This document shows positions 2,504 to 9,677 of a DNA stretch of 64,000 nucleotides, piece after piece; the first letter of the stretch is position 1, and each line of letters opens with the position of its first letter. This DNA comes from Pseudobutyrivibrio sp. OR37 (GTDB lineage: Bacteria; Bacillota; Clostridia; Lachnospirales; Lachnospiraceae). The notes beneath the pieces are model-generated. The model was not told the DNA's origin. It saw only the letters and a list, made by a program, of their open reading frames with translations, and ran no database searches. The translations under genes were made by a program, and so were the position numbers. The DNA lies in contig NZ_FOQF01000013.1 in the NCBI RefSeq assembly GCF_900113655.1, forward strand, positions 1-64,000. The letters are read 5' to 3'.

Positions 2504-2543
2504 AAAAAAGGCTCCCTGCGCCGCAAAATCAACGCAAAGAGCC
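2504..2543 (-). terminator. Intrinsic terminator of the CDP-polyol operon
   Basis: On the minus strand, GGCTCTTTGCG pairs with CGCAGGGAGCC (with two G-U pairs) around a 12-base loop, followed directly by six T. It lies about 30 bases after the stop of the oxidoreductase gene. Confidence 0.85.
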
Positions 2544-2575: not shown

Positions 2576-3556
2576 TTACGCCTTCTCCATAACCTCGGCC
2601 ATAGCAATAGACAGCCCCTCCAGCTCAACACTGGCTGGTGCGCCATTCACTCTGTCAACAAACTCCCTAATCTCATAGCGCAAGCCATCCCCTTCCATTT
2701 CCTCGTCGTAGGAAATGATACGATTCGGATCCTCGAAATGAACCTCGTAATGCTTGGTCAGCCACCATGGTGCAGGCACCACAATATAGCCCTTCGTGCC
2801 AGATACCACCAGGCTTCCCTCGCTCTTTACACCGATTCCAGTAGTAACCGAGCCATAAGCACCGGCAAACTTGAAATCAGCCACTGTAAAGATATCCACG
2901 CCATCTTTATTTCGCATGGTTTCAAAGGAAACACTCTTATAATCAAGCCCAAGCAAGCTAAACACTGCAAGCATTCCATAGCTGCCCAGCTCCCTAAAGC
3001 TGCCAGCCACATCACTATCGGTGAACTCCCTGCTATCCTCTGGTACCAGCTTGGTAAATGCGGCTCTCACATGAACGATGTCCCCAATCATGCCACTTCT
3101 AGCGGTATCACATAGATTCTTAAACCCAGGCATGTAGGCTGTCTTCAATCCTTCCATTACCACCAGCTTCTTCTTCCTTGCCAACTTGAATACCTTTTCT
3201 GCCTCCTTGCCACTTAATGCTAGCGGCTTTTCGCACAATACATGCTTACCATGTTCCAAAGCCTCTTTGGCGTATTCAATATGTGTGCCATGAGGACTTG
3301 AGATGTACACGGCATCCACCTTATCCCACATATCCTCTACCTTGTCCACAGGCTCCGGAAGGGAATATTTACTAAGTCCAAGCACTGCGGAAGGCATCAA
3401 GCCAACTATATCATCCTGCAGCCTTGAAACGAATTCCATTGCACTTCCCCCATGTGGATTGTAAACAACTGATATTGATGCTCCATCCACATGCTCTATC
3501 TCTTTCAAAAATCTCCTAGCAATTCTTCCAGTTCCAATAATTCCAAATTTAATCAC
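2576..3556 (-). CDS. Gfo/Idh/MocA family oxidoreductase
   Basis: This 326-residue NAD(P)-dependent dehydrogenase has the N-terminal Rossmann motif GIIGTGRIA (residues 5-13) and the family signature CEKPLAL with the catalytic lysine near residue 110. An alpha/beta substrate-binding domain fills the rest. Such enzymes oxidise or reduce sugars, inositols or related polyols. The start is GTG, with GGAG seven bases upstream; that Shine-Dalgarno sequence lies in the last codons of the preceding fusion gene, whose stop is 2 bases away, so the two are translationally linked. It is clearly paralogous to the oxidoreductase half of that fusion protein: both share SAMEF, the GSYGML segment, GVKSEG and PWWL. 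The pair may act in sequence or as a complex. The substrate cannot be read from the sequence. Confidence 0.9.
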   Translation of the reverse strand: MIKFGIIGTGRIARRFLKEIEHVDGASISVVYNPHGGSAMEFVSRLQDDIVGLMPSAVLGLSKYSLPEPVDKVEDMWDKVDAVYISSPHGTHIEYAKEALEHGKHVLCEKPLALSGKEAEKVFKLARKKKLVVMEGLKTAYMPGFKNLCDTARSGMIGDIVHVRAAFTKLVPEDSREFTDSDVAGSFRELGSYGMLAVFSLLGLDYKSVSFETMRNKDGVDIFTVADFKFAGAYGSVTTGIGVKSEGSLVVSGTKGYIVVPAPWWLTKHYEVHFEDPNRIISYDEEMEGDGLRYEIREFVDRVNGAPASVELEGLSIAMAEVMEKA

Positions 3557-3558
3557 GA

Positions 3559-4908
3559 CTACTCTCCTTGTATCTGCTTTCTCTGCTCCATAAATTTTTC
3601 TACGACCTTAGCCATAGCTCGGGATTCCCCAGCTGTCAGCTTGTAGTCCACGCTTTCGGGATCCCTGATTTTGTTAATGAATTCCGAAATCTCGTATCTA
3701 AAGCCTCCTCCCTGGAATTCTGCCTTGTGACGCTCAATTCGCGAAGGATCCTCGTAGCGCACCTCAAAGCTGTCGGCCAGCCACCATGGTGACTGCACCA
3801 AAATATATCCTTCAGTTCCGGCGATTATAAGCTGGCCTTCGGATTTAACACCATCGCCAGCCTTGGCCGTAGCCAAACATCCATCGTATTTGAACCTAGC
3901 CTCAGTATAGATATCGATTCCATTCTCCCCGAGTATGGATTCAATTTCCACCGACTGATAATCCACCCCCAGAAGCTTGAATATAGGCAGCATTCCATAG
4001 CTTCCATACTCCAAAAATGCGCCACTATATTTGTAATCATATTGCTCTCTAGAGCCCACCACCGGAAGTCGGGAAAAGCAGGCTTCCACATTGCAAATTC
4101 TACCGATTGTCCCCGATTTTGCAGTTGCGATTATCTGCTGAAAGGCCGGTAGATATGCCGCCCTGATTCCTTCCATCAGCTTTAGGCCCTTTGATTTTGC
4201 CATGTTATATAGTTCCTGGGACTCCGCAAAAGTAAAGGTCATCGGCTTTTCACACAGCACGTGCTTTCCAGATTCTAAGCCTTTTCGCACATAGTCCGCA
4301 TGAGTTTCGTTTGGCGATGCCACGTATATTGCATCCACCTTGCCTAAAAACTCATCAAAATTCTCCACATAGGTAGGCAGCTGATAGATTCTATTAAATT
4401 CCATGGCAGAATCCACATCCGGATTGTAGGCTGCCACAACTTCGGCACCAGATACATAACTGGATTCTTCGAAGAAACGTGGTGCCACACGGCCTGTTCC
4501 AACTATTCCTATTCTGATTAAAGAACCTCTTCCCTCCCGTATTATGGTAGAAGAGATATCTGGCGTACGCTCCAGGTAGACCACCTTGCAATATGCATTT
4601 AGATAGTCAAATTTGCCTGTCCAATCTGAGCCCACTGTAAAGATATCCACCCCATACTTTTGGATATCCTCTATCTTTTGACCATCGTGGTCCTCTACGA
4701 TGATTTCATCCGCAAACCCTGTGGCACGTACATTTTCAATACGTGTCATGATTGGGTCCACCAGATTCAGCTTTCCTCGCATGGTGTCAAAATGTTCAGT
4801 TGTAACTCCAACAATTAGATAATCCCCCAGAGCCTTTGCACGCTGTAACAGCTTGTAATGTCCCTCATGAAACAAATCAAAGGAGCCGTACGTAATAACC
4901 TTTTTCAT
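3559..4908 (-). CDS. Fusion: cytidylyltransferase domain plus Gfo/Idh/MocA oxidoreductase
   Basis: The 449-residue protein joins two enzymes. Residues 1-128 are a TagD-like nucleotidyltransferase, with YGSFDLFHEGH at 7-17 (the HxGH motif), a RGK segment near 44-46, and ISSTIIR near 119-125. This domain type usually transfers CMP from CTP to glycerol 3-phosphate or a similar phosphorylated polyol. Residues 131-449 form a complete Gfo/Idh/MocA dehydrogenase with GIVGTGR and CEKPMTF. There is no frameshift at the junction, so the fusion is genuine as read. One inference is that the dehydrogenase reduces a sugar phosphate or keto compound whose product is activated with CTP by the other half. The neighbours fit: a CDP-glycerol-transferase-like protein upstream and a second dehydrogenase directly downstream. 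The exact CDP product is unknown. Confidence 0.88.
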   Translation of the reverse strand: MKKVITYGSFDLFHEGHYKLLQRAKALGDYLIVGVTTEHFDTMRGKLNLVDPIMTRIENVRATGFADEIIVEDHDGQKIEDIQKYGVDIFTVGSDWTGKFDYLNAYCKVVYLERTPDISSTIIREGRGSLIRIGIVGTGRVAPRFFEESSYVSGAEVVAAYNPDVDSAMEFNRIYQLPTYVENFDEFLGKVDAIYVASPNETHADYVRKGLESGKHVLCEKPMTFTFAESQELYNMAKSKGLKLMEGIRAAYLPAFQQIIATAKSGTIGRICNVEACFSRLPVVGSREQYDYKYSGAFLEYGSYGMLPIFKLLGVDYQSVEIESILGENGIDIYTEARFKYDGCLATAKAGDGVKSEGQLIIAGTEGYILVQSPWWLADSFEVRYEDPSRIERHKAEFQGGGFRYEISEFINKIRDPESVDYKLTAGESRAMAKVVEKFMEQRKQIQGE

Positions 4909-4937
4909 AAGCTCACCCGTGATACTTTCTGTACTCC

Positions 4938-7481
4938 CTACCTTAAATACTCGTACACCTTCTCACCACAGTCACCAGCTGGCGAAGCATTCACCATGGC
5001 ATATTGCCTTAGCTGCTCTTCCTTATCAAACTGGTTTCCGTGGATGTTGTTATCAATCAAATCAACTAACGTATTGAACAAATCCTCGTTACAACAATAT
5101 CTTTGCAGATGTGATGAATTGGTAAAGCCCTTCGCATGACTGTAAATTTCTTCCTTATCGAAATACTGGTCTTCAAGAGAGATTTCCTTTGTATTTAAAT
5201 CGATATGATATTGCTTTCTGTTAATTGCATCGAAATAACTATAGCAGCTCTTATCCACATCCCATCTACGGATGAAATAGCCTGCCCCATAGTTTGGCAC
5301 ATACCTGTCCTTGTCCTCAAATGTAACCGTAAATGGGCTATCCCATGGCTTCACTTCACCAGTGACCCTGTTTAGGCAAACAAACACATTGCCCCAATAT
5401 GGAGCAAATATAATTTCATCTCCATTAAATGCCATGCTAGCAAACAATCTTTTATTAGCCTGACATTTCTTAGTCCTATCGTATCCATTAATGCCAGGCA
5501 CTGCCAAATCATAATCCTTGAATCCGCCATTCTTAAAATTAAACAGCCTAAATACAGTGCCCTCATAGGGAAATAGCCACACTTCATCTGTGTCTACACT
5601 TTCCATACCTCCAGCCGTGTATAGCCCTGTAAATCCTGTATCTGTCACCTCCGTAGCCATTGTCTGCTTATCTATTTTAAGCAGCAGACTACCGTCCACT
5701 GACAGGATATAGATTGAATCTCTATTTGACCATCTGGCAGATATTATCCGCTCCCCTTCCATGGTCTGAAGGATGTTAAAATCAGCCACATTACTAAGCA
5801 CTGCAATTTCATTGTTATCCATATTCAGCCTAATCATGCTGCCGTATCTGTCTGGGCACAGATAGATGTAATTCTTTTCCAAGTAGAATCCTGAAAAGGC
5901 AACACCCCGGGCTACTCGCTTTTCAAGCTCAATCTTTCTAATGTTCTTTTTCTTATCAATGATTAATATATCCTGCGCCACATATGGCAACACGTAGATA
6001 TTATCCTTATATTCAATAGCGCGCTGATAGTAACCGCCGCTGCTGTAGTCCAATAGCTTGCAGAAGAACTCAAAATGCATATCATCATTTGGCGATACAT
6101 ACAGCTCGTTATATGGACTCACAAAATATTTGTTGTGCCTCTCTCCATCAAATGTAGCCATGTGCCCTTGATAAAATGACGCCTTCCAATCATCCTCCTC
6201 TGGTAGCTCGTTCAGGCTATTATTAAGAATAAACATAGGCTTACCAACCACACCAAACAGTGATGTTACGCTGGTGCCCGAATCGCCAATATACACATCT
6301 GATATGGCTATCGTATTTTCGATATTTGGTGTAGTGTCATAGATTCCCCAGCCCTCTCTGATATACCTATCCCTGATATCGTGATAGATAGGCAGAAATC
6401 CCGGTTCCATGGATTCAAGGGTAGATTCAAACAGAGGATGTGGACGCCAGATTAAGCACACGTCCTTTCTTTCCCTGAATGTATTAAATACATAGCTCAT
6501 CTTCTCCATGAAATTCTTTGGATTATCAAGCATGCCACTAAGGCTGGTGTTGTAGAAAAACACCCGCTTGCCAACCATCTTATCCTTCCATTCAGCTGGA
6601 GCCTCTGGCGGATTTTCGCACTTCTTTATCACCGCATCAAACTTAGGTGAGCCCAGCGGAAGAAACTTTTCCCTTGGCACATTCTTATAGTAATCAATAA
6701 TCTTTTTTGACTGAACTACCAGATAGTCTGCATTGTCATAGCTTGGAAGATAAGCCTGTCCCTCCCCCATGCCTCCTGCTGTTGCAAAATAAGGCACATA
6801 AACCAGGCAATCTCCATACTCCTTTAGCTTATCTGAGTAGAAAAATGGATGTACACTTGTAACGTAATTATATTGATCATAAGGATTATGAAAGAAAATA
6901 ACATCTGGATGTTCTAATCCAAAATCGAATTCATCATATTTTGTGATAGGGATATCCTCTGGGAAAAGGTCCGCTTCATAATGTTTTTTTACAAAATCCC
7001 CCTGAGAATCTTTATCGAAATAAGGAATTGGAATTACAAGGGCCCTACAGTTCTCATCTGATCTGGCTGCTTTAAAAATAGACTCCATGCTGTCCCACAT
7101 GGATGCCTTGTATGGTAAAAACACAAATAAACGCTTTACAACAATGTCGTTCTTTGCGCTTTTTTCTATCTCATTTATGCTGTGATCTAATCTGCCCCTT
7201 GCCGATTCCGCCGCAAGTCCTCTCTCACTTTGCAGCTCCTGATGAATCTGAAAGATCACCTCGCAAAACTCCTCCAAATGCTTTACCGTCACATGGCCTT
7301 CGCCCTCTTCTGCCTCTATGTATTCTCCTAAATCAATGGCTTTTTGCTGGCAGATTTCCAGATACTCCAAAGCTTTGTCCATACCAGCCCCGTCTTTTGA
7401 TAAAGCCGCGAATACCCCCTCATTTAGCTTTCTAAATAATGCGATATAATTTTCTACCTGTTTGAACCTATACTTTCTCAT
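4938..7481 (-). CDS. CDP-glycerol glycerophosphotransferase-like protein with C-terminal propeller-like domain
   Basis: The protein has 847 residues when started at the ATG at 7479-7481, which has GGGAGG seven bases upstream; the frame is open a further 51 codons but without a comparable start. Residues 1-115 are helical. Residues about 117-430 resemble the TagF/CDP-glycerol glycerophosphotransferase family: WRPHP at 345-349 and GDSGTSVTSLFG at 399-410 are the family's usual nucleotide and phosphate contacts. Residues about 470-790 contain repeated strands of the kind seen in beta-propellers (IYVLPY, IYLCPDRYG, IYILSVDG, VWLFPYEG, IIFAPYWG). The product probably transfers a polyol phosphate to a surface polymer, with the propeller perhaps binding the acceptor; that split is inference. 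It is the first gene of the operon with the fused cytidylyltransferase. Confidence 0.8.
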   Translation of the reverse strand: MRKYRFKQVENYIALFRKLNEGVFAALSKDGAGMDKALEYLEICQQKAIDLGEYIEAEEGEGHVTVKHLEEFCEVIFQIHQELQSERGLAAESARGRLDHSINEIEKSAKNDIVVKRLFVFLPYKASMWDSMESIFKAARSDENCRALVIPIPYFDKDSQGDFVKKHYEADLFPEDIPITKYDEFDFGLEHPDVIFFHNPYDQYNYVTSVHPFFYSDKLKEYGDCLVYVPYFATAGGMGEGQAYLPSYDNADYLVVQSKKIIDYYKNVPREKFLPLGSPKFDAVIKKCENPPEAPAEWKDKMVGKRVFFYNTSLSGMLDNPKNFMEKMSYVFNTFRERKDVCLIWRPHPLFESTLESMEPGFLPIYHDIRDRYIREGWGIYDTTPNIENTIAISDVYIGDSGTSVTSLFGVVGKPMFILNNSLNELPEEDDWKASFYQGHMATFDGERHNKYFVSPYNELYVSPNDDMHFEFFCKLLDYSSGGYYQRAIEYKDNIYVLPYVAQDILIIDKKKNIRKIELEKRVARGVAFSGFYLEKNYIYLCPDRYGSMIRLNMDNNEIAVLSNVADFNILQTMEGERIISARWSNRDSIYILSVDGSLLLKIDKQTMATEVTDTGFTGLYTAGGMESVDTDEVWLFPYEGTVFRLFNFKNGGFKDYDLAVPGINGYDRTKKCQANKRLFASMAFNGDEIIFAPYWGNVFVCLNRVTGEVKPWDSPFTVTFEDKDRYVPNYGAGYFIRRWDVDKSCYSYFDAINRKQYHIDLNTKEISLEDQYFDKEEIYSHAKGFTNSSHLQRYCCNEDLFNTLVDLIDNNIHGNQFDKEEQLRQYAMVNASPAGDCGEKVYEYLR

Positions 7482-7634
7482 CCCTAAGCCTCCCAGTATT
7501 CCTATACCTACACTAATACCACTATATTTTACCGCTTTCTGTCTAAAAATACACTTTTGTTCACAGAATGTTGCGAATTTTCTTTGCAACTCCCTTTTCA
7601 CAGCTAATACATAAAACCATGCTATATTACACAC

Positions 7635-8272: not shown

Positions 8273-9013
8273 TTATTCATTAATGAATTCTATTATTTCA
8301 CTAACAGTTTCGCTAGTCTGCTCCTGCACGCTGATGGAAGGCTTTCCATCTCCATCCTGCATTCCATAATCTCCAAAATACCCATGGCAACCACCATCTA
8401 TCACTACTTCCTCGAAATCTGATGGAAGATTTTTTTTGCACTCATTATACTTTTCCATGTTTAGGACTCCGTCCTCAGAACCTCTGATGGAAAGAGTATT
8501 TACTGCAGGCTCATCAGTCAAATCCTTTGTAGAATATGCTGCAAGCAATATCAATCCTTCGTATTCGCTTTGATGTCTGTCTGCGTATAGAGAAGCCATT
8601 GCTCCGCCAAGGCTGTGTCCACCAATGTACCACTTATCAATCTCAGGATATTTTGCCTGAATTCCTCTAGCTCCATTAGCATCAAGCATTGCCAGATAAT
8701 GTGGCATTTTAACCACCACGCCAAAGACTCCCTGCTCTGCAAGCTGCTCCATAAGTGGCGCATAAGCCTCTGTCTCTACCAATCCACCTGGATAAAAGAT
8801 AAATCCAGCAACTGGATTTTCAGGCTCAAACAAAATCGTATTATCAATATCTTCAACCTTTACTCCCTCAGCTGGTTCGCTGATATATTTCCACGCTTCA
8901 TCCGTTGCCAGATAGTAGTTATTCACATAACTAAAACATTTCCACACACAGGCAATCACTACAGCAAGGATTACCACACCTACTATTATTCTTCTTTTTT
9001 TCTTACTCTTCAT
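8273..9013 (-). CDS. Membrane-anchored alpha/beta hydrolase
   Basis: This 246-residue protein has a basic N-terminus and one transmembrane segment (residues 9-30). The rest is an alpha/beta hydrolase domain facing outward. GHSLGG places the nucleophile at Ser134; Asp181 (SEDGVL) and His210 (GGCHGYFG) complete a likely triad. The domain resembles the dienelactone-hydrolase-like or family 5 hydrolases with a short lid. Substrate is unknown; an ester or small-molecule substrate is possible. Its ATG overlaps the 3' end of larB by 11 bases and has AGGAAG just upstream, so the two are co-transcribed. No functional link to LarB is known to me. Confidence 0.8.
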   Translation of the reverse strand: MKSKKKRRIIVGVVILAVVIACVWKCFSYVNNYYLATDEAWKYISEPAEGVKVEDIDNTILFEPENPVAGFIFYPGGLVETEAYAPLMEQLAEQGVFGVVVKMPHYLAMLDANGARGIQAKYPEIDKWYIGGHSLGGAMASLYADRHQSEYEGLILLAAYSTKDLTDEPAVNTLSIRGSEDGVLNMEKYNECKKNLPSDFEEVVIDGGCHGYFGDYGMQDGDGKPSISVQEQTSETVSEIIEFINE

Positions 9014-9677
9014 TTCTACTTCCTACTGCCAATCTATTTATCTGCGTTGCAATATAACCTGCCCCGTAGCCATTATCAATATTTACCACGGAAATTCCAT
9101 TAGCACATGAATTAATCATGGTAAGAAGTGCCGAGATTCCGCCCATGTTTGCCCCATAGCCTACACTTGTAGGAACTGCGATAACAGGAACCTTTACAAG
9201 GCCTCCAACAACTGATGCCAATGCACCTTCCATTCCTGCAACTGCCACCACGCAATTAGCCTGATTCAATACATCCACATTTTCAAGCAGACGATGAATG
9301 CCGCTAACGCCCACATCAAATACTCTGTTAACCTTGCTGCCGAAATATTCAGCTGTCTGAGCCGCCTCTTCTGCAACAGGGATATCAGCTGTACCTGCTG
9401 TAACTACTGCGATTTCCCCTACAAGCTCTGGTAGTTTGGCATCTGGCGAAACAGCCTTCAGAATCCTGCTAACCTTATCATAGGTTGCCTCTGGGATAGC
9501 TACCTTCACTATCTCATACTGATGCTCCGTAGCTCTTGTCCCAAAAACCTGGCCATCTCTTTCATACATCTTTTTATATATGTCCTCCAAAAACTCATCG
9601 GGCTTTCTCTCACAGAAGATTACCTCTGGAAATCCTGTACGATTTTTTCTATCAAAATCCAAATTTGCAAAATCCAT
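9003..9677 (-). CDS. larB: LarB, pyridinium-3,5-biscarboxylic acid mononucleotide synthase
   Basis: This 224-residue protein matches LarB: an N-terminal arm (LDFDRKNRTGFPEVIFCERK) followed by a PurE-like domain with TAGTADIPVAEEA, VAVAGMEGALASVVGGL and PTSVGYGANMGG. LarB carboxylates and hydrolyses nicotinic acid adenine dinucleotide in the first step of nickel-pincer nucleotide synthesis, the cofactor of lactate racemase and relatives. The larC and larE partners and larA are not in this window. Its start has AGGAGGAGG five bases upstream, and a consensus extended -10 promoter lies just before it, overlapped by an inverted repeat. Co-transcribed with the hydrolase gene. pncB, which makes nicotinate mononucleotide for the same NAD branch, lies about 8 kb away, but that may be coincidence. 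Confidence 0.92.
   Translation of the reverse strand: MDFANLDFDRKNRTGFPEVIFCERKPDEFLEDIYKKMYERDGQVFGTRATEHQYEIVKVAIPEATYDKVSRILKAVSPDAKLPELVGEIAVVTAGTADIPVAEEAAQTAEYFGSKVNRVFDVGVSGIHRLLENVDVLNQANCVVAVAGMEGALASVVGGLVKVPVIAVPTSVGYGANMGGISALLTMINSCANGISVVNIDNGYGAGYIATQINRLAVGSRNEE

Follow-up and report, generated by a model that had tools for sequence, protein, structure and literature searches.

A TagD-type cytidylyltransferase fused to a Gfo/Idh/MocA dehydrogenase is a candidate CDP-alditol synthase

Introduction

Enzymes that make CDP-linked alditols for surface polymers are the closest described counterparts of the system reported here. In PMC10918830, HS5.18/HS5.17 of C. jejuni (CDP-6-D-glucitol) and Mnp1/Mnp2 of S. 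pneumoniae (CDP-D-mannitol) are described as activating a sugar phosphate with CTP before reducing it with NADPH, in both cases for a surface polymer, whereas Bcs1, the fused CDP-ribitol synthase of H. influenzae, is a single bifunctional protein which, like TarI/TarJ, brings a cytidylyltransferase and a reductase into one pathway but with reduction first. Here, we analyze a 64,000-nucleotide stretch of Pseudobutyrivibrio sp. OR37 (contig NZ_FOQF01000013.1, positions 1 to 64,000; "the window"), in which a three-gene operon encodes a transferase-like protein (TF), a fusion of a TagD-type cytidylyltransferase with a Gfo/Idh/MocA dehydrogenase, and a second dehydrogenase of the same family (DEH2).

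The activation-first pairs differ from this fusion in build, as they are IspD-type (PF01128) and short-chain dehydrogenase/reductase (SDR, PF01370) enzymes on two proteins, whereas the window joins TagD-type (PF01467) and Gfo/Idh/MocA domains in one chain. Pfam detected neither PF01128 nor PF01370 in the three operon proteins, a contrast with IspD/SDR routes that agrees with an earlier note on this DNA, by which known CDP-glycerol and CDP-ribitol routes use other reductases and separate enzymes. Among related loci, L029 has a PF01128 gene and L027 a PF01370 gene close to the fusion, which hints at a separate group for each of the two routes but is no proof of it. Bcs1 and TarI/TarJ consist of protein folds other than those of the fusion. 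Each half also has known relatives: TagD of B. subtilis and S. aureus (1coz, 2b7l) shares family and catalytic motifs over residues 1–125, but is a stand-alone glycerol-3-phosphate enzyme that retains a Trp lacking from the fusions, while the Gfo/Idh/MocA ketoreductases KijD10 (3rc1) and dimeric dihydrodiol dehydrogenase (2o48) are relatives of the dehydrogenase half in fold and sequence, but carry no cytidylyltransferase domain and, judged by their names, use TDP-sugar or diol substrates. The parts are known; among the matches listed from open-licence PMC papers there was none on this fusion (weak evidence of absence), and neither the TagD-Gfo/Idh/MocA combination nor its lineages with a dead domain appeared in the literature found. 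We consider the fusion a variant of CDP-alditol synthesis, and not a member of the TagD, Bcs1, or HS5.18/HS5.17 types.

Results

The fusion protein matches PF01467 (residues 5–125, E 3.7e-18) and PF01408 (131–247, E 1.8e-27) in one uninterrupted frame, and its predicted model consists of two folded domains (pLDDT 91.4), with the lowest-confidence blocks at residues 121–130 (57), 41–50 (70), and 111–120 (76); the cytidylyltransferase-dehydrogenase fusion proposed in the earlier note is thereby confirmed. Chance or a misread frame was ruled out as its source, as related genomes carry the same full-length fusion. The PF01408 match reaches 96.9 bits against a cut-off of 24 and includes the GxGxxA motif and the EKP lysine, which, like the wide distribution of the fusion described below, does not refute the earlier reading on its own terms. 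For the C-terminal domain PF22725 (cut-off 27) the fusion scores 23.3 and DEH2 43.6, and the whole dehydrogenase fold of the fusion agrees with those of solved Gfo/Idh/MocA enzymes, most closely with 3e9m (target TM-score 0.88). In the other half, residues H14, H17, R114, T115, and S119 of the HxGH and RTxxxS catalytic motifs are invariant across all 56 sequences of an alignment (A1) made from the 70 fusions available (69 loci and the window), near-duplicates and cut sequences being left out.

The fusion is widespread, not rare. A scan of species genomes yielded 77 loci, 69 with both halves in one plus-strand open reading frame (ORF) and 67 full-length by profile. They span several phyla, with members in Lachnospiraceae, Oscillospiraceae, Selenomonadaceae, Bacteroidales, Akkermansia, Treponema, Methanobrevibacter, Cryobacterium, and further taxa. 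Since many of the loci, including both from Methanobrevibacter, are metagenome-assembled, single taxa may be binning errors. Within the window's own family, profile matches at E 1e-100 occurred in 30 of 299 genomes, although among these 30 best matches two are incomplete relative to the model and one is interrupted by stops. At E 1e-50, 13 of 398 genomes of its phylum matched, corresponding to nine full-length fusions (window included) and four stand-alone TagDs. Matches were found in 14/240 genomes for the phylum of an Akkermansia locus and in 1/395 for that of a Bacteroidales locus, this one being the genome used as search centre. The one other same-genus genome listed (G949) yielded no fusion, and the single match at E 1e-40 among 72,556 plasmid records was pRUMAL01 of Ruminococcus albus 7. 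An enlarged scan of 114 loci provided the 102 full-length fusions used for the counts below, with the window counted additionally where n = 103 or, for intact fusions, n = 63.

Across this enlarged set, Lys221 of the EKP motif is kept in 62 fusions and lost in 40 (kept in 35/56 in A1). The redox-site residues G134, G137, G139, A142, H203, E220, K221, G296, and E300 are kept in 63/63 intact fusions, whereas nucleotide-binding and active-site positions are degraded in lysine-less fusions, which retain G139 in 7/40, A142 in 8/40, G296 in 11/40, E300 in 12/40, and Y304 in 5/40. Judging from these residues, 40 of the 102 relatives carry a dehydrogenase half that appears dead; W375 and W376 are retained in all 40, and a few of them, including L043 to L050, still have the glycine motif.

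Aminotransferases, SDRs, and thiamine pyrophosphate (TPP) enzymes act on carbonyls, and genes of these three classes were, in counts, strongly associated with the lysine-less state. At least one lies within two same-strand genes of 28/40 lysine-less fusions vs. 1/62 intact ones, and within six genes of 33/40 vs. 8/62; restricting the two-gene count to 86 non-redundant fusions gave 28/39 vs. 1/47. The same classes were found within two genes of 10/17 lysine-less and 1/18 intact fusions in 35 loci identified after the hypothesis had been noted, these being the stretches with a full-length fusion out of 37 wider ones hand-picked among the new fusions, near-identical and partial ones left out. An earlier check of new loci with short flanks had given 11/19 vs. 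1/23, and is superseded by these wider counts, as its intact rows include the window twice (L089 and L098) and some of its Akkermansia rows hardly differ from each other. On an 87-row tree in which intact rows are scored "none" and lysine-less rows without a partner are left out, partner type shows 15 changes. The R. albus 7 fusion, which is lysine-less (Ser) and annotated as "adenylyltransferase/cytidyltransferase family protein", sits in a polysaccharide locus of pRUMAL01 composed of LicD, class-V aminotransferase, fusion, LicD, GNAT, and LicD. Four other lysine-less fusions (L072, L074, L082, and L150) lie near both a TPP enzyme, acetolactate-synthase-like in L082, and an SDR, which suggests branched CDP-linked products.

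The cytidylyltransferase half is, on sequence grounds, a subfamily apart from stand-alone TagD. Against the glycerol-3-phosphate cytidylyltransferase model TIGR01518 (cut-off 165.4 bits), the window fusion scores 106 (109 in the own-genome search) and six relatives 106–124, whereas four stand-alone TagDs score 180–214. Position 64 is Gly in 101/103 fusions vs. Arg/Lys in 6/6 stand-alone TagDs, and a Trp at 73–76 is found in 0/103 vs. 6/6 (a seventh TagD, L081, is outside this comparison); the Trp and Arg/Lys positions (75 and 64) presumably line the substrate pocket of TagD. Arg44 for Lys, a hydrophobic residue 47 for Lys, Gly76, and Ser94 complete the fusion signature. Together, the scores and signature residues lean towards the earlier note's expectation that the enzyme would not act on glycerol 3-phosphate only. 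These signature residues are common to lysine-intact and lysine-less fusions, consistent with all of them activating one and the same carbonyl compound. The nearest solved relatives of this half are nevertheless glycerol-3-phosphate cytidylyltransferases, and the own-genome search found no gene over the TIGR01518 cut-off. That genome does encode three more PF01467 proteins (contig C22:41233-63794; loci L003, L004, and L006), of which one has a 799-aa and another a 445-aa frame; the one PF04464 gene found in the genome lies in the same region.

The genes around the fusion point to surface polymers. Neighbours were labelled using BLAST clusters and hidden Markov models built here, with representatives tested by Pfam/NCBIfam and other members assigned by similarity only. 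The resulting clusters include LicD (PF04991), TagF-like (PF04464), GDPD (PF03009), class-V aminotransferase (PF00266), HisC-like aminotransferase, SDR (PF00106), and an acetolactate-synthase-like TPP enzyme. A LicD, TagF-like, or TF gene lies within six same-strand genes of 73/102 fusions (50/62 lysine-intact and 23/40 lysine-less), supporting the surface-polymer link suggested earlier. Within the same range, TF accompanies 29/62 intact vs. 0/40 lysine-less fusions, GDPD 24/62 vs. 1/40, and DEH2 12/62 vs. 1/40, the last directly adjoining 10/62 intact fusions. No sugar-phosphate enzyme that might supply the substrate was evident in 66 of 67 unassigned neighbours of intact fusions read by eye (first 75 residues), apart from a pair of TIM-barrel proteins in L073, of which one scores above and the other below the Pfam cut-off. 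In L073 (9669-11420), a DEH2-like Gfo/Idh/MocA dehydrogenase and a GDPD domain also form a single protein, which ties the phosphodiesterase to the fusion pathway.

In the window, the second dehydrogenase, DEH2 (PF01408 and PF22725, EKP intact in its translation), is 44% identical to the dehydrogenase half of the fusion over 328 aligned columns, and is thus the paralogue that had been claimed. In a quick tree with several unsupported branches, it branches within the dehydrogenase domains of the fusions, as though it had arisen as a copy of one (the row L073_DEH2 was disregarded, as it holds the GDPD half). Near one lysine-less fusion, a stand-alone, EKP-bearing DEH2-like gene is encoded on the opposite strand (L149:3673-4626).

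TF could not be assigned to a known family, as no match was obtained against Pfam (even at E 10), NCBIfam, or PDB sequences at the limits used, and neither a known Pfam family nor LicD was retained as its identity. Its predicted model (pLDDT 88.7) resembles UDP-GlcNAc 2-epimerases (GT-B fold) and beta-propellers, with only moderate target TM-scores (mostly 0.4–0.55). Residues 119–419 match an alignment of the TagF-like neighbours (hhalign probability 96.5, E 1e-9), so that the description of TF as a CDP-glycerol-transferase-like protein with a propeller-like C-terminal half finds support in both model and profile. Like the TagF/TarF CDP-glycerol transferases (PF04464), TF aligns an HP motif in its N-terminal half, but no Pfam model, PF04464 included, matches it directly at E 10, the remote profile match being the only link, and the propeller-like half sets TF further apart. 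A 227-residue stretch related to the GT-B half (31–32% identity) also occurs at the C-terminus of a LicD protein by Pfam (L014:5197-6987) and of its relative (L076:5254-6990).

The coordinates of the operon are collected in Table 1. An alternative GTG start at 7634 would extend TF by 51 residues to 898 aa, while the similarity of relatives begins at the ATG at 7481. The gene order TF-fusion-DEH2 is kept in loci L008, L009, and L011, indicating that this arrangement is not due to chance. Patterns like the terminator listed in Table 1 occur at 8 sites in 6.3 kb vs. 4.4 expected. The operon adjoins genes for an alpha/beta hydrolase and for LarB (window 8273-9677), and in L008 and L009 it is flanked by genes that agree with these in length and order. 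A 283-aa ORF at 1257-2108 has no Pfam/NCBIfam match at E 0.001.

Table 1 Features of the operon in the window.
Feature	Position	Strand	Details	Basis
Operon genes TF, fusion, DEH2		-	three ORFs; gaps of 29 and 2 bases	
TF, transferase-like protein	4938..7481	-	847 aa from ATG at 7481	ORF, relatives, predicted model
GT-B-like half of TF	6222..7139	-	~residues 115-420; conserved WRPHP and GDSGTS stretches	model, profile match
Beta-propeller-like half of TF	5112..6134	-	~residues 450-790	model
Fusion protein	3559..4908	-	449 aa; cytidylyltransferase + Gfo/Idh/MocA dehydrogenase	ORF, Pfam, predicted model
TagD-like cytidylyltransferase domain	4531..4908	-	residues 1-126	Pfam, motifs H14xGH17, R114-T115, S119
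Gfo/Idh/MocA domain of fusion	3574..4521	-	residues 130-445; GTGRVA and EKP intact	Pfam, motifs, model
AAG codon of Lys221 (EKP motif)	4246..4248	-	residue lost in 40/102 relatives	
DEH2, second Gfo/Idh/MocA dehydrogenase	2576..3556	-	326 aa; GTG start	ORF, Pfam
Terminator-like hairpin and T run	2510..2543	-	directly 3' of DEH2	pattern only

Discussion

Quite probably, the fusion synthesises a CDP-alditol in one way or another and so supplies a surface polymer. On balance, we favour a bifunctional enzyme that would activate a keto-polyol phosphate and then reduce it for such a polymer, while the exact order of these steps and the nature of the carbonyl substrate could go either way. The simplest account of carbonyl-acting enzymes beside reductase halves that look dead, with the activating half remaining alike, is that the activating half handles the carbonyl compound and the built-in dehydrogenase normally reduces it. 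Activation likewise comes first in the published C. jejuni and S. pneumoniae enzymes, which belong to other families. In the pathway that we infer, from its substrate, step order, and direction to its cofactor use and the role of TF, the TagD-like half would join a small keto-polyol phosphate from central metabolism with CTP, and the Gfo/Idh/MocA half would reduce the resulting CDP-linked ketone to a CDP-alditol with NAD(P)H. DEH2 may catalyse an additional redox step, or an alternative one, in the window lineage, TF would move the polyol phosphate onto a surface glycan, and in lysine-less lineages the carbonyl step may have been handed to other enzymes encoded nearby. Compared to the compact pathway of the earlier note, the fusion, the paralogue, the two halves of TF, and the polymer link stand, whereas a need for two reductase steps is questionable, with DEH2 found within six genes in just 12/62 intact fusions, and a product outside the usual teichoic acid alditols is conjectural.

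Several observations weigh against this reading. Just 3 changes of the lysine state are seen on the 56- and 87-row trees, and 2 on the tree of the dehydrogenase half, and with so few independent losses the Fisher values for the partner association (1.4e-14 for 102 loci, 1.2e-12 for the 86 non-redundant ones) overstate independence; a tree-aware pair test of lysine loss vs. partner was not significant, and cannot reach significance. A partner is absent within two genes of 12/40 lysine-less fusions and within six of 7/40, the six-gene range also takes in the 8 intact fusions, and two intact loci are exceptions, with a HisC-like gene at +1 (L164) or a class-V aminotransferase at +3 (L026). Residue 74 is Tyr in 39/40 lysine-less fusions, vs. 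His in 31/63 and Tyr in 7/63 intact ones, which indicates that the pockets are not identical. Finally, 12/62 intact fusions have no TF, LicD, or TagF-like gene within six genes, some of these loci being short contigs.

The difference at residue 74 would also be expected if the compounds activated in the two groups differed, as might be the case if reduction came first, i.e. if a ketose phosphate were turned into an alditol phosphate by the dehydrogenase half before its activation by the TagD half, as in Bcs1 and TarJ/TarI. This order has been published for CDP-ribitol enzymes of H. influenzae and S. aureus (PMC10918830), but appears unlikely here, since it would require the TagD half to take alcohols, amines, and perhaps branched compounds depending on the lineage, and yet this is the better conserved half (mean between-group identity of 66% vs. 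36% for the dehydrogenase half, from 158 rows with A1 members counted twice). A self-contained CDP-glycerol synthase, in which dihydroxyacetone phosphate would be reduced to glycerol 3-phosphate by the dehydrogenase half and activated by the TagD half, is less plausible still: the closest solved relatives of the TagD half, a genome in which the fusion could take the role of the TIGR01518 gene not found there, and GDPD genes within two genes of 24/62 intact fusions would all be consistent with it, but the TIGR01518 scores of the window and six relatives fall well under the cut-off, and the fusions lack the Trp and, in 101/103, have Gly at position 64, positions that we take to belong to the pocket. 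An epimerising pair, with the dehydrogenase half oxidising a CDP-polyol and DEH2 re-reducing the ketone with opposite stereochemistry, would account for the tandem paralogues of the window and for DEH2 adjoining 10/62 intact fusions (12/62 within six genes), but is very improbable given the 50/62 intact fusions with no DEH2 within six genes and the aminotransferase or SDR of lysine-less lineages, which would presumably be left with no carbonyl source.

The fusion might further act as a modular platform, in which one common CDP-linked ketone would be converted to an alditol by the built-in dehydrogenase, an epimeric alditol by an SDR, an amino-polyol by a class-V or HisC-like transaminase, or a branched polyol by a TPP enzyme and an SDR, the dead domain being kept as a partner scaffold in the last three cases; we offer this extension tentatively, and regard it as rather doubtful.

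If the favoured reading is true, these gut and rumen bacteria, and perhaps archaea, would possess a CDP-polyol route assembled from protein families other than the published ones, and amino- and branched polyol phosphates would be predicted in their surface polymers. The lineages with a dead domain represent a natural test of the step performed by each half, and a protein so far labelled only as "adenylyltransferase/cytidyltransferase family protein" in R. albus 7 would become a testable enzyme family.

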